From: Planctomycetales bacterium
GTDB taxonomy: Bacteria > Planctomycetota > Planctomycetia > Planctomycetales > Planctomycetaceae
DNA length: 41,340 nucleotides
Direction of reading: 5' to 3'
NCBI GenBank assembly: GCA_026400835.1
Contig: JAPLOA010000038.1
Location: 1 to 41,340 of the forward strand
Every line of letters starts with the position of its first letter. Positions within the stretch are counted from its first letter, which is position 1. A model generated the notes under the pieces. That model was not told the origin of the DNA. It did not search any database and saw only the letters and a program-made list of their open reading frames with translations. This document shows, one piece after another, positions 18,308 to 41,340 of this stretch. The position numbers and the translations under genes are program-made.

Positions 18308-19606
18308 ATGGCAAGCGTTGAAAAAGACGGACAGGGCTATCGCGTCCGATTCATCGACCACAACAAGGAGCGAAAAGCGATTCGCCTCACTGGCATAAAC
18401 AAATCGAACGCCCAAACAGTTGCCCACCATGTTCAGCAACTTGTGAACTGGAAGAAATCGGGCTTGGCGTTGGATAGTCAAACGGCAGACTGGATTGCCA
18501 AGAAAGTCGGGCAGGAGCTTTACGACAAACTGAGCAACGCGGGACTGATTGAAGCCCGAGTATCATCAAGCCTTGGTGATTTTGTCGCCAGTTACATCAA
18601 ACGACGTTCCGACGTGAAGCCCGGGACCACAACGAACTATGATCAGGTTCGCCTGAACCTCGTGGCATTCTTCGGGTACGACAAGCCCCTGAGATCCGTT
18701 ACGGCAAACGACGCAGCGGCGTTTCGCGAATGGCTGCAGGCGGAGGAAGGGCAGGCCGAAAACACTCTGCGGAGGCGATGTGGACGGGCTCGCCAGTTCT
18801 TCACGGCAGCAATGAAAGCCAAGTTGATCGACGATAACCCGTTCGATGGAATGCCGGTCACTGTCAGCGGCAATAAGTCCAAAGAACGGTTTATCACTGA
18901 AGCGGAAGCCCAAAAGATTCTTGACGCTTGTCCGAACGCAGAATGGCGGCTGATTTTTTCATTGTGCCGATACGGGGGGCTTCGTTGTCCGTCGGAAGTT
19001 CTGGCGTTGAAGTGGGAAGATATCGTGTGGGATGCGTCCCGAATCGTAGTTACCAGTCCAAAGACGGCACATCACAAGGGGCATGAATCCAGAGTGATTC
19101 CTCTCTTCCCAGAGCTCCTGAAACCGTTGATGGAAGTTCAGGAACAGGCTGCGGAACGAACGGTTCACGTGGTCACCCGTTACCGATCGTCGAATCAGAA
19201 CTTGCGAACGGAACTGAATCGCATCATTAAGCGGGCGGGGGTGATTCCCTGGCAGAAGCCTTTCCAGAACCTGCGATCGACTCGGGAAACGGAACTGATG
19301 GAAAGCTATCCCGCCCACGTGGTCTGCCGATGGATCGGAAATTCGGAAGCGGTGGCGAAGAAACATTATCTGCAGGTGACAGACGCGCACTTTGAAAGGG
19401 CTGCAGTTCCCAGAACGGTTGGGGGGGAGGGGCACAGCCAGGGGCACAAGGCATGCGAAACGACGAAAACTGGCGAAACCATCAAAGCAAGAGACCCCGA
19501 GAAAACTCAGCGTTTTTCGGGGTCCTGCGTTTCAGTTGCCAATTCTTCGCATCACAAAATTAACCCGGCCAGGACTCGAACCTGGAAAATCAGAACCAAA
19601 ATCTGA
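18308..19606 (+). CDS. Tyrosine integrase of the tRNA-Gln element
   Basis: About 432 residues from the ATG at 18,308 (AAGGCAGG eight bases upstream); the frame is open from a GTG at 18,230. An Arm/SAM-like N-terminal core-binding domain spans about 80-200. The catalytic domain shows box I LRCPSEVLALKW, the beta-hairpin lysine in SPKTAHHKG, box II QNLRSTRETEL (Gln where His is usual), WIGNS, and the tyrosine in KKHYLQV. The C-terminal ~60 residues are low-complexity and hydrophilic. The last 15 codons and the stop lie inside the tRNA-Gln gene on the other strand, so the reading frame crosses the presumed attachment core. Confidence 0.9.
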   Translation: MASVEKDGQGYRVRFIDHNKERKAIRLTGINKSNAQTVAHHVQQLVNWKKSGLALDSQTADWIAKKVGQELYDKLSNAGLIEARVSSSLGDFVASYIKRRSDVKPGTTTNYDQVRLNLVAFFGYDKPLRSVTANDAAAFREWLQAEEGQAENTLRRRCGRARQFFTAAMKAKLIDDNPFDGMPVTVSGNKSKERFITEAEAQKILDACPNAEWRLIFSLCRYGGLRCPSEVLALKWEDIVWDASRIVVTSPKTAHHKGHESRVIPLFPELLKPLMEVQEQAAERTVHVVTRYRSSNQNLRTELNRIIKRAGVIPWQKPFQNLRSTRETELMESYPAHVVCRWIGNSEAVAKKHYLQVTDAHFERAAVPRTVGGEGHSQGHKACETTKTGETIKARDPEKTQRFSGSCVSVANSSHHKINPARTRTWKIRTKI

Positions 19607-19631
19607 TGTGTTACCATTACACCACCGGGTT
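19561..19631 (-). tRNA. tRNA-Gln (anticodon TTG)
   Basis: On the minus strand a complete 71-base cloverleaf can be drawn. The acceptor AACCCGG pairs with CCGGGTT, followed by discriminator A. The D-stem is GTGT/ACAC, the anticodon stem TCAGA/TCTGA with loop TTTTGGT (anticodon TTG), and the T-stem CCAGG/CCTGG with loop TTCGAGT. All stems pair perfectly. CCA is not encoded. The 3' end faces the integrase gene, the usual geometry when a tRNA 3' end serves as attachment site. Confidence 0.95.
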
Positions 19632-39842: not shown

Positions 39843-39912
39843 GGGAGGGCGAGGCTCCTGCCGAGCCATTGGACTGCGGAAACTAGCGGCTCAGCAGGAG
39901 CCTCGCCCTCCC
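39843..39912. repeat. 25-bp inverted repeat (MITE- or REP-like)
   Basis: The left arm is 39,843-39,867 and starts GGGAGGGCGAGGCTCCTG; the right arm is 39,888-39,912 and is its complement in 24 of 25 positions. The 20-base loop is AT/GC-mixed. In RNA it would fold into a very stable hairpin. Its GC-rich sequence is unlike the other palindromes in the window. Similar sequences may recur in the genome, which cannot be tested here. Confidence 0.85.
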
Positions 39913-40049: not shown

Positions 40050-40290
40050 GAGTGTTTCAGGTGTTCGCGGGCGGTTTCGGACCAGTCGACGTTCATGTCG
40101 CAGTCAGAATCGCGGGTGCGAATGAAAAGGGAAGACGGTGACCAGTTCTGCTGGGAATCCGTCGCGGTCCCGCCGCTGTAATCGAGGACTGACTCTGCCG
40201 AATGTCACTGTGAAGAGGGCTGAATGCTCAGGTTCATGGGAAGACGCAGAGTTCGGGATGATTCGAAAGCCAGAAGACCTGCCTGAAAAC
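40050..40290 (+). ncRNA. Cobalamin (B12) riboswitch
   Basis: The conserved cobalamin riboswitch blocks occur in order. The P1 arms TTTCAGG (40,055) and CCTGAAA (40,282) close the element. AAAAGGGAAGACGGTG lies at 40,125, and CCCGCCGCTGTAA at 40,169. A stem ACTCTGC (40,192) / GCAGAGT (40,246) encloses CACTG and GGGAAG. The B12 box AGCCAGAAGACCTGCC lies at 40,268-40,283. All match the Rfam RF00174-type consensus as I know it. Such elements bind adenosyl- or other cobalamins and usually switch off transporter or biosynthesis genes. Here the next gene on the same strand begins about 250 bases later and is a prepilin-like gene. Confidence 0.93.
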
Positions 40291-40500
40291 GCTACGGACG
40301 AACACTTCGCGGAAGAGTGTTGTCGGTATGAACAGACCGCTGCGAACTTCGGTTCGGTGTGCGTTGTGTAAGTTCAGCGTTGTTGGGTTTGCGCGGCTTT
40401 TACTCCATCGCCGGGATGGCCGGTTTTGCCTTGCACGAACTCCGCGACTGCACTTCGACCAACGCGCCGGTTATTGTGGTTTCTTAATGTTCAGCCGGTA

Positions 40501-40531
40501 ACTCCCTGAAGCGAGCTTTTTCAGGTGGAGT
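40501..40531 (+). promoter_or_regulatory. Hairpin that can sequester the ribosome-binding site
   Basis: CCTGAA (40,505) pairs with TTCAGG (40,520). The stem is extended by ACTC (40,501) with GAGT (40,528), leaving a two-base bulge. The GGAG Shine-Dalgarno of the downstream gene (40,527-40,530) lies within the paired 3' side, ten bases before the ATG. CCTGAA and TTTCAGG also occur as the P1 arms of the riboswitch, so alternative pairing between the two elements is possible. Confidence 0.6.
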
Positions 40532-40539
40532 GAATTTCG

Positions 40540-41340
40540 ATGGCTGATTTGCTGGCCTCTCGACGCCAACACAGACAACTTCGCGGCTTTACGCTCATTG
40601 AATTGCTGGTGGTGATTGCAATCATTGCAGTACTGACCGGGCTGTTATTGCCGGCCGTGCAGCAGGCACGCGAGGCGGCTCGCCGAACGCAGTGCCGCAA
40701 TAGTCTCAAGCAGCTCGTGCTGGCTATGCATAACTATGCCGATCTGTTCCAGGAACAGTTCGTGCCCTATGTGGTCGAGAACCGCCAACGAATGAGCTAT
40801 TTGCAAACGTTCTCGGGTGGACAAGGGAAGGCTCAGTTCTGGTTTGGCACTGTGGACTATGACCAGCCTGATCCAAAACTGCAGCTTGATTTTTCCGCGG
40901 GGCCATTGAGTCCGTTCATGGAAACGAACTACGAATCGTTTCAATGCCCGAACTTTGGGCCATCACAGATGGATGTCGTAAGATTTGGTCGGCCAGCCAC
41001 CGGGTTCGGATACAACGGACATTATCTTTCACGGCCGGCTGGCGTCGAATGGTTGCCTCCGACCTATGCAGCTCAATTCAGCCCGAAGCCGCTGTGTCGC
41101 AGATTCAGAGATGTTCCCGAATCAGGACGGACTGCCGTTTTCTCTGACAGTGCGGCCGTCAAGCTGGTGGGATTTTCACCGATGATTTTCAGCTTCGAAG
41201 AAAACTGGCTGCTGGATCCGCCAAGTCAGAATTTTCCGACGGTTCACTTTCGCCATCTCGACTCTGCCAACGTCGCGTTTCTGGATGGTCATGTTGAAAG
41301 CTTTTCGTACGCCGTGCATGTCGATGTTCCGGGAGACAAT
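40540..41340 (+). CDS. DUF1559 prepilin-like protein, H-X9-DG motif (3' end outside window)
   Basis: 267 residues are visible and the frame is open to the end of the window. A type IV prepilin-like leader is present: the charged N-terminal part ends in G at 16, followed by [22 protein letters not shown], with the glutamate at +5. The [21 protein letters not shown] segment is the standard start of planctomycete DUF1559/SBP_bac_10 proteins, and the H-X9-DG motif ([12 protein letters not shown]) lies near the end. Members are exported pseudopilin-like proteins, numerous in planctomycetes, with no proven role. The translation start follows a GGAG site held in a hairpin and the gene lies behind a cobalamin riboswitch, so expression probably responds to B12. 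Confidence 0.93.

Follow-up and report, generated by a model that had tools for sequence, protein, structure and literature searches.

What control by vitamin B12 would have to do with a prepilin-type protein is the question raised by one end of the window (the whole stretch of 41,340 nucleotides analysed here, from a Planctomycetales bacterium), where a cobalamin riboswitch stands in front of a DUF1559 gene. Riboswitches of the RF00174 family sense adenosylcobalamin and switch the gene off when the vitamin is plentiful. After a cmscan of the whole window, the aptamer was located at positions 40055-40289 of the + strand (RF00174 model positions 14-178 of 189) with a score of 96.6 bits against the gathering score of 31.5 (E 5.2e-23) and with the core blocks aligned, and this Infernal search confirmed the initial annotation, in which a clear B12 riboswitch had been read from the letters. 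The covariance-model score lies over the gathering threshold and makes the window riboswitch a typical RF00174 representative; no other match to this family at E <= 0.001 occurs anywhere in the 7.58-Mb genome (99.99% complete).

Just 3' of the aptamer, a hairpin with the stem AACACU/AGUGUU (40301-40321, + strand) was read from the sequence, and the CTTCGCG side of its loop is conserved in all 7 aligned sequences, the window among them; from riboswitch anatomy we take it to be a candidate regulatory P13/L13-like hairpin. A putative Shine-Dalgarno-like element, AGGTGGAG (40523-40530, + strand), was likewise read 9 nt before the ATG. The initial annotation had named what would separate the riboswitch from this gene, namely a promoter of its own for the gene, an intrinsic terminator between the two, and a classic B12 gene on another transcript. 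No + strand promoter was detected in the region by a simple scan for promoters of the sigma-70 type, and the genome carries no second RF00174 site that could serve another transcript. The terminator is a mixed case: the window does have terminator-like sites 3' of the aptamer (the longest at 40363-40397; 6 against 2.2 expected, both strands of 2 kb being scanned), and across the relatives terminator-like sites between aptamer and gene were found in 12 of 93 regions, with ten Markov-resampled shuffles giving 4-10, so that no clear enrichment is seen and an intrinsic terminator is not clearly supported as the general expression platform. Translational control of the DUF1559 gene is possible as an alternative mode. 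The predicted RNA fold of 40280-40560 is not unusual in stability (z -0.94).

The first same-strand gene after the riboswitch occupies 40540-41340 of the + strand (ORF of 267 codons) and is open at its 3' end since the contig stops at 41340; it encodes a prepilin-type, divergent DUF1559 protein, proposed to be a B12 uptake component. The missing end could be read on another contig from the closest relative, G101 (G, L, g and f mark genomes, loci, genera and families), whose protein is 97% identical and shows 36 further residues ending in DELYDLQ. A prepilin cleavage/methylation motif, GFTLIELL and following residues (residues 15-36; 40582-40647, + strand), was recognized by PF07963 with 33 bits and by TIGR02532 with 28.8 bits against a cut-off of 16.3, giving the G-F-T-L-I-E motif and hydrophobic helix that define a prepilin. 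The profiles of specific pilin or type II secretion pseudopilin types, GspG, GspH, ComGC and others, stayed below their cut-offs and matched the N-terminal part only. PF07596 (DUF1559) scores 46.5-49.2 bits against a cut-off of 23.3, and the only matching part is residues 41-71 (40660-40752, + strand), corresponding to profile positions 1-31 of 268 rather than to most of the domain. The genome holds 67 matches to PF07596, of which 54 reach 100-220 bits, almost always along the whole profile, as compared with the 46.5 bits and 31 positions of the window protein. The exported, prepilin-like DUF1559 gene of the initial annotation is thus present and of prepilin type, with the corrections that the gene is incomplete and that its DUF1559 match is confined to the head. 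Judged from these matches, the product is a divergent DUF1559 relative with a distinct body of its own, and the name fits its head only.

With the DUF1559 (PF07596, SBP_bac_10) paralogues of Planctomycetota the window protein shares the N-terminal prepilin helix and an H-X9-DG-like motif near the C terminus, but its body has diverged (31 of 268 positions), it belongs to a distinct, riboswitch-associated clade, and the single RF00174 of the genome is that of its gene. The H-X9-DG region (residues 237-256; 41248-41307, + strand) gives 17.2 bits with TIGR04294, just below the cut-off of 19, and within this block HFRH, A, F and D-G-H are invariant in 21 aligned sequences; the invariant HFRH...A...F.DGH block is a candidate corrinoid site. 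Pfam detected neither a plug domain nor a beta-barrel in the window protein, which hence does not belong with BtuB. An AlphaFold model made with 21 sequences was too poor for a fold search (pLDDT 50, pTM 0.40), and a profile search of PDB sequences gave no solved structure for the protein body, the only hit being a nanobody at E 1, which is a chance match.

In order to follow the pair of riboswitch and gene through the family, as proposed in the initial annotation, an even draw of 150 family genomes was searched with a body profile from which the pilin helix had been left out (A2; matches from 125 bits upwards counted as strong). At E <= 1e-10, A2 matched 110 of the 150 genomes, 95 of them strongly and with one locus each (split into two pieces in G122 and over two contigs in G101) and 15 weakly. 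RF00174 lies no more than 1.5 kb upstream, in the same orientation, at 85 of the 95 strong loci and at 6 of the 15 weak loci, a signal stronger than the initial annotation had noted. At six of the ten strong loci without a linked riboswitch, the contig extends no further than 400 nt upstream of the match (G016, G117, G127, G115, G012 and G132), and in G144 a riboswitch stands at the edge of another contig, where the locus has presumably been split; in G071, G092 and G063 the gene is kept with no RF00174 even at E 1 in the 2 kb or more upstream. Altogether RF00174 was found in 124 of the 150 genomes at 150 places, 2 of which are below the gathering score. When 30 short riboswitch loci were searched by tblastn, a DUF1559 match was found in 29, and in the remaining one, L011, the contig continues for just 178 nt after the aptamer.

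A collection of 23 relatives from named genomes, which overlaps with the 150 family genomes (L033, for instance, looks identical to the contig G101:C539) and is not independent of them, carries RF00174 directly upstream in 22 of 23 (in L050 the contig ends within the aptamer). The one without it is a remote match in Lentisphaerae with 42% identity over 68 residues. In a midpoint-rooted tree with a basal support of 0.66, 78 of 93 riboswitch-linked DUF1559 proteins form a clade that includes none of the 30 best-scoring of the 67 paralogue loci of the window genome, and the other 15 fall into two groups among the paralogues. At the level of the phylum, A2 matched 39 of 392 genomes. Of these, 24 belong to the family, one (G409) is a strong match from a different family and also stands behind RF00174, and 14 are weak; at 5 of the weak matches, RF00174 precedes the locus in the same orientation at a distance of 0.5-3.1 kb, among the matches listed.

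The genes behind the pair were analysed by clustering 122 riboswitch loci (100 of the 150 RF00174 places plus the 22 named ones, duplicates included), with genes picked as the longest-first ORFs rather than by a trained gene finder and with context taken as same-strand order. The largest cluster, a small protein anchored by a lipobox or a helix and carrying a CxxC...C pattern, was found in 47 of the 122 loci, followed by DUF6580 (35), a BtuF-like protein with no obvious signal peptide (31), DUF71 (19), a BtuB-like receptor (8), CobC (8), CobT (7), CobS (7) and a class I-like ribonucleotide reductase (7). By Pfam search of one to three representatives each, DUF6580, Peripla_BP_2, PF01902, DUF4465, TonB receptor domains, a BluB-like nitroreductase, CobS and CobQ were confirmed; the names ribonucleotide reductase, CobT and CobC were given from the sequences and their context, not from a family search. 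The DUF71 cluster (one representative matching PF01902, Diphthami_syn_2, PP-loop, at E 1.2e-35) adjoins the BtuF-like gene and mostly DUF6580, as found for the B12 subgroup of DUF71. Bacterial DUF71 genes mostly cluster with B12 transport genes and have a predicted role in B12 salvage, according to the available text of PMC3541065. A BluB-like gene and the genes for CobQ, CobT, CobS, CobC and a BtuF-like protein are preceded by a distant orthologue in L057 and L155, and by a DUF1559 protein of the other set in L093 and L095. For the lipobox or CxxC protein, Foldseek gave no match in PDB at E <= 0.001 (model pLDDT 79), and tblastn at E <= 1e-3 did not detect it in G101:C462 or in ten further loci (L034-L039, L104, L107, L110 and L137).

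A second line of evidence came from the BtuB-like receptor, for which the riboswitch-linked protein has E. coli BtuB as its best PDB match (E 3e-42). With presence defined as E <= 1e-20 to one query (L128), the receptor was found in 21 of the 150 genomes and directly behind RF00174 in 16 of these 21. A strong DUF1559 orthologue is carried by 4 of the 21 receptor genomes as compared with 91 of the 129 receptor-free genomes (Fisher p 1.1e-5, the genomes being treated as independent), and when tallied by genus it is found in 4 of 12 receptor genera against 37 of 46 others (p 0.003). The co-occurring genomes are G035, in which the receptor is more distant and not riboswitch-linked, G043, G148, and G122 with its interrupted orthologue. 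Neither protein was detected in 23 of the 150 genomes, which means that other routes exist. The exchange can be followed within genera: in g32 the receptor is found in G031, G094 and G107 and the DUF1559 gene in G073 and G117, while in g56 the receptor is found in G083, G103 and G139, the DUF1559 gene in G056, G114, G129 and G144, and neither in G124 and G134.

In G083 the riboswitch and the receptor lie between the gene blocks that flank the riboswitch-DUF1559 pair in congeners: on one side there are four genes 86-97% identical to those after DUF1559 in L080 (G114), and the opposite side holds a gene of 1046 residues (63% identical to the G129 counterpart) together with one of 183 residues (85-86%). 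One of the blocks is inverted, and two short ORFs that match nothing intervene. In G139 only the second flanking side is present, and the loci of G103 and of g32 have different neighbours. In other planctomycete families, a TonB receptor follows 15 of the 23 top-scoring riboswitches (one of which has only 144 nt behind its aptamer), 11 of 11 in family f14, which contributes 11 of the 23, and 4 of 12 elsewhere. The likeness to BtuB, which is riboswitch-controlled in E. coli, therefore lies in the same genetic slot behind a cobalamin riboswitch; in contrast, the window protein is prepilin-type, unrelated in sequence, and without a beta-barrel or plug. From this genetic exchange, the DUF1559 protein may work like BtuB. 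In three loci of g32 (L268, L269 and L287), the B12 receptor is preceded on its strand by a gene that by eye resembles one for a TonB-type energising protein; such a gene is one that the DUF1559 arrangement would not need.

With one marker family taken for each statement, the window genome was found to carry the domain of the B12-dependent methionine synthase MetH in a 1322-codon frame, to have no match for CbiC of corrin-ring synthesis, and to be devoid of TonB plug domains (0 matches, E <= 0.001); in the family, any plug domain is found in 41 of 150 genomes and none at E <= 0.001 in 109. FecCD gave two matches in the window genome, and the listed one is a partial-profile match of 29.5 bits, just over the curated cut-off of 26.5. 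By these markers the organism looks like a B12 user that lacks ring synthesis and has neither a known outer-membrane receptor nor a clear BtuC.

For the inner membrane, a candidate is offered by DUF6580, which is present in only 3 of 22 genomes with strong FecCD as compared with 122 of 128 others (p 4e-16 by genome, 7e-5 by genus), strong FecCD being defined as 264 bits or more by a line drawn post hoc at a gap in the scores. The 22 genomes score 264-325 bits and the next value is 52.5; when the curated cut-off is applied instead, FecCD is matched in 133 of the 150, the window's genome included. The window genome encodes DUF6580 at G000:C80:4131-4631 (- strand), not linked to a riboswitch. DUF6580 is thus a candidate inner-membrane B12 transporter of a non-BtuCD kind, presumably comparable to BtuM, the solitary ECF-type B12 transporter, in being a small multi-helix membrane protein in B12 loci, but it differs from BtuM in having no sequence link. 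A relationship to BtuM by sequence was set aside, as the DUF6580 profile matched no PDB chain even at E 10, and the comparison is one of function.

The riboswitch, its conserved pairing with the gene, the gene context, the exchange with the BtuB-like receptor and the lack of a TonB plug in the window genome are computed results. The conservation of the pair, the B12 genes that follow it and the exchange with the receptor together point to uptake; of the two roles suggested in the initial annotation, corrinoid uptake or a B12-dependent surface function, the former is thus favoured. We propose that the DUF1559 protein probably carries out the outer-membrane step of B12 uptake in the place of BtuB. 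The riboswitch would sense adenosylcobalamin and turn the gene off at high B12, and at low B12 the prepilin-type protein would be made, cleaved and anchored by its N-terminal helix. It would then be placed in a (pseudo)pilus-like assembly that spans the envelope or is exposed at the surface, where its distinct C-terminal body could capture corrinoids and aid their crossing of the outer membrane, in many relatives with the small envelope-anchored CxxC protein encoded alongside. For most of the family, DUF6580 rather than BtuCD is the probable route of the corrinoid through the inner membrane, after which it would be salvaged in the cytosol with the DUF71, BtuF-like and CobT/S/C proteins.

That the riboswitch serves genes further downstream and DUF1559 is a mere passenger would agree with the B12 genes that stand on the same strand behind DUF1559 in many relatives, but it is difficult to reconcile with the lineage of the window itself, as read from G101 and not from the window's own strain. 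There the last residues of the gene stand at the start of contig G101:C462, on which no + strand ORF longer than 67 codons is found from the stop codon to position 795 (0.65 kb after the gene), a 1171-codon ORF from 951 runs on the opposite strand, and the + strand ORFs beyond are short or antisense, so that nothing convincing follows on the same strand. The lack of B12 genes after DUF1559 in this closest relative indicates that the DUF1559 gene itself is the target of the riboswitch. Other loci, e.g., L045 and L061, also keep riboswitch and DUF1559 without any of the named downstream clusters, and by such loci the passenger reading, to which we give hardly any probability, is largely refuted. 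The transporter that the initial annotation had expected beyond the window is accordingly met in many relatives, in the form of DUF6580 and the BtuF-like protein, but not in the window lineage. We also hold it decidedly unlikely that the gene makes fibres for attachment at low B12, for instance to B12-producing partners, without handling the vitamin. The protein is indeed of prepilin type, and planctomycetes bear pili-like fibres in the available text of PMC5394234, but adhesion leaves unexplained both the exchange with the BtuB-like receptor and the corrinoid salvage genes behind the gene.

To our knowledge, pilins alone form no outer-membrane pore, which is in favour of an accessory role, in which DUF1559 would capture the vitamin at the surface, like BtuG, BtuH and BtuJ of Bacteroides, and a separate outer-membrane channel would translocate it. 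In a second set of riboswitch units, other DUF1559 proteins are indeed paired with DUF4465 (L131 and L152, and by eye L264 of family f3), the domain of BtuJ, which is reported to bind B12 in the available text of PMC13398666. The Bacteroides proteins resemble the present one in being envelope proteins whose genes lie in uptake loci controlled by cobalamin riboswitches. They are, however, lipoproteins encoded beside BtuB (PMC13398666, as far as its available text goes), whereas the protein here is pilin-like and its gene is found mostly where BtuB is absent. Moreover, no TonB plug domain is found at E <= 0.001 in 109 of the 150 genomes, and no channel gene is seen among the annotated, larger downstream clusters. 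Capture with a separate channel is on these grounds a minority reading, with a small but real chance of being correct. The outer-membrane role in BtuB's place may be specified further, in a tentative form that we consider less than evenly probable, as a substrate-specific DUF1559 pilin that captures B12, a (pseudo)pilus that moves it into the periplasm independently of TonB, and DUF6580 in the place of BtuCD. Movement by a pilus fits the observation that dextran binds to planctomycete pili-like fibres and reaches the periplasm by an uncharacterized route (PMC5394234, available text).

The family may therefore take up B12 by a route not previously described. In the literature searched, a scope outside which lie most subscription papers and bioRxiv, no description of a riboswitch-DUF1559 link and no DUF6580 were found, and planctomycetes have 0 mentions in the main text of PMC13398666. 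Vitamin B12 has a mass of about 1.35 kDa. Porins admit about 600 Da, as stated in the available text of PMC5394234, and the uptake of larger molecules by planctomycetes is an open question. Planctopirus limnophila has 68 DUF1559 paralogues, two of them essential, in the text of PMC10632474 available to us. For one clade of this orphan family the riboswitch gives a candidate substrate and on/off control, and both the family and the uptake question become testable with a single gene, a single vitamin and a tractable strain. If the tentative pilus-driven route is true, the DUF1559 paralogues (67 matches here, 68 in P. limnophila) would by extension each serve in the uptake of a particular substrate, and such a set of subunits would help to explain the passage of large molecules through the planctomycete outer membrane. 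The near-complementarity of DUF6580 and FecCD adds a second prediction, that of a non-BtuCD inner-membrane B12 transporter.

Several minor observations were made along with this analysis. DUF4465 proteins with PEP-CTERM tails were seen in the riboswitch units L131, L152, L123, L115, L119, L122 and L264, some of them behind a different DUF1559; the domain was assigned by Pfam for L131, L152 and L119, by the same cluster for L115 and L122, and by eye for L123 and L264. A cobalamin riboswitch in front of a B12-independent isozyme such as a ribonucleotide reductase is a classic arrangement, and by eye a class I-like ribonucleotide reductase follows the riboswitch in L082, L100, L105, L108, L109, L112 and L118; the genes of L112 are followed by a further riboswitch, this one with DUF1559 (L064). 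The riboswitch at 1001-1220 of L265 (G468), from a different family of the class, precedes, by eye, a protein like MetE, the B12-independent methionine synthase. The public records of L033, L035, L042 and L050 are titled Candidatus Kuenenia stuttgartiensis; Kuenenia is an anammox lineage, and as the locus is of the Planctomycetaceae type, these organism labels look wrong. In the window itself, a GC-rich inverted repeat, GGGAGGGCGAGGCTCCTG...CAGGAGCCTCGCCCTCCC (39843-39912), resembling an interspersed palindromic repeat, lies between a leuD-like gene and the riboswitch, and a tRNA gene was identified at 19561-19631 on the - strand (66.6 bits), with the anticodon read by eye as TTG (glutamine).
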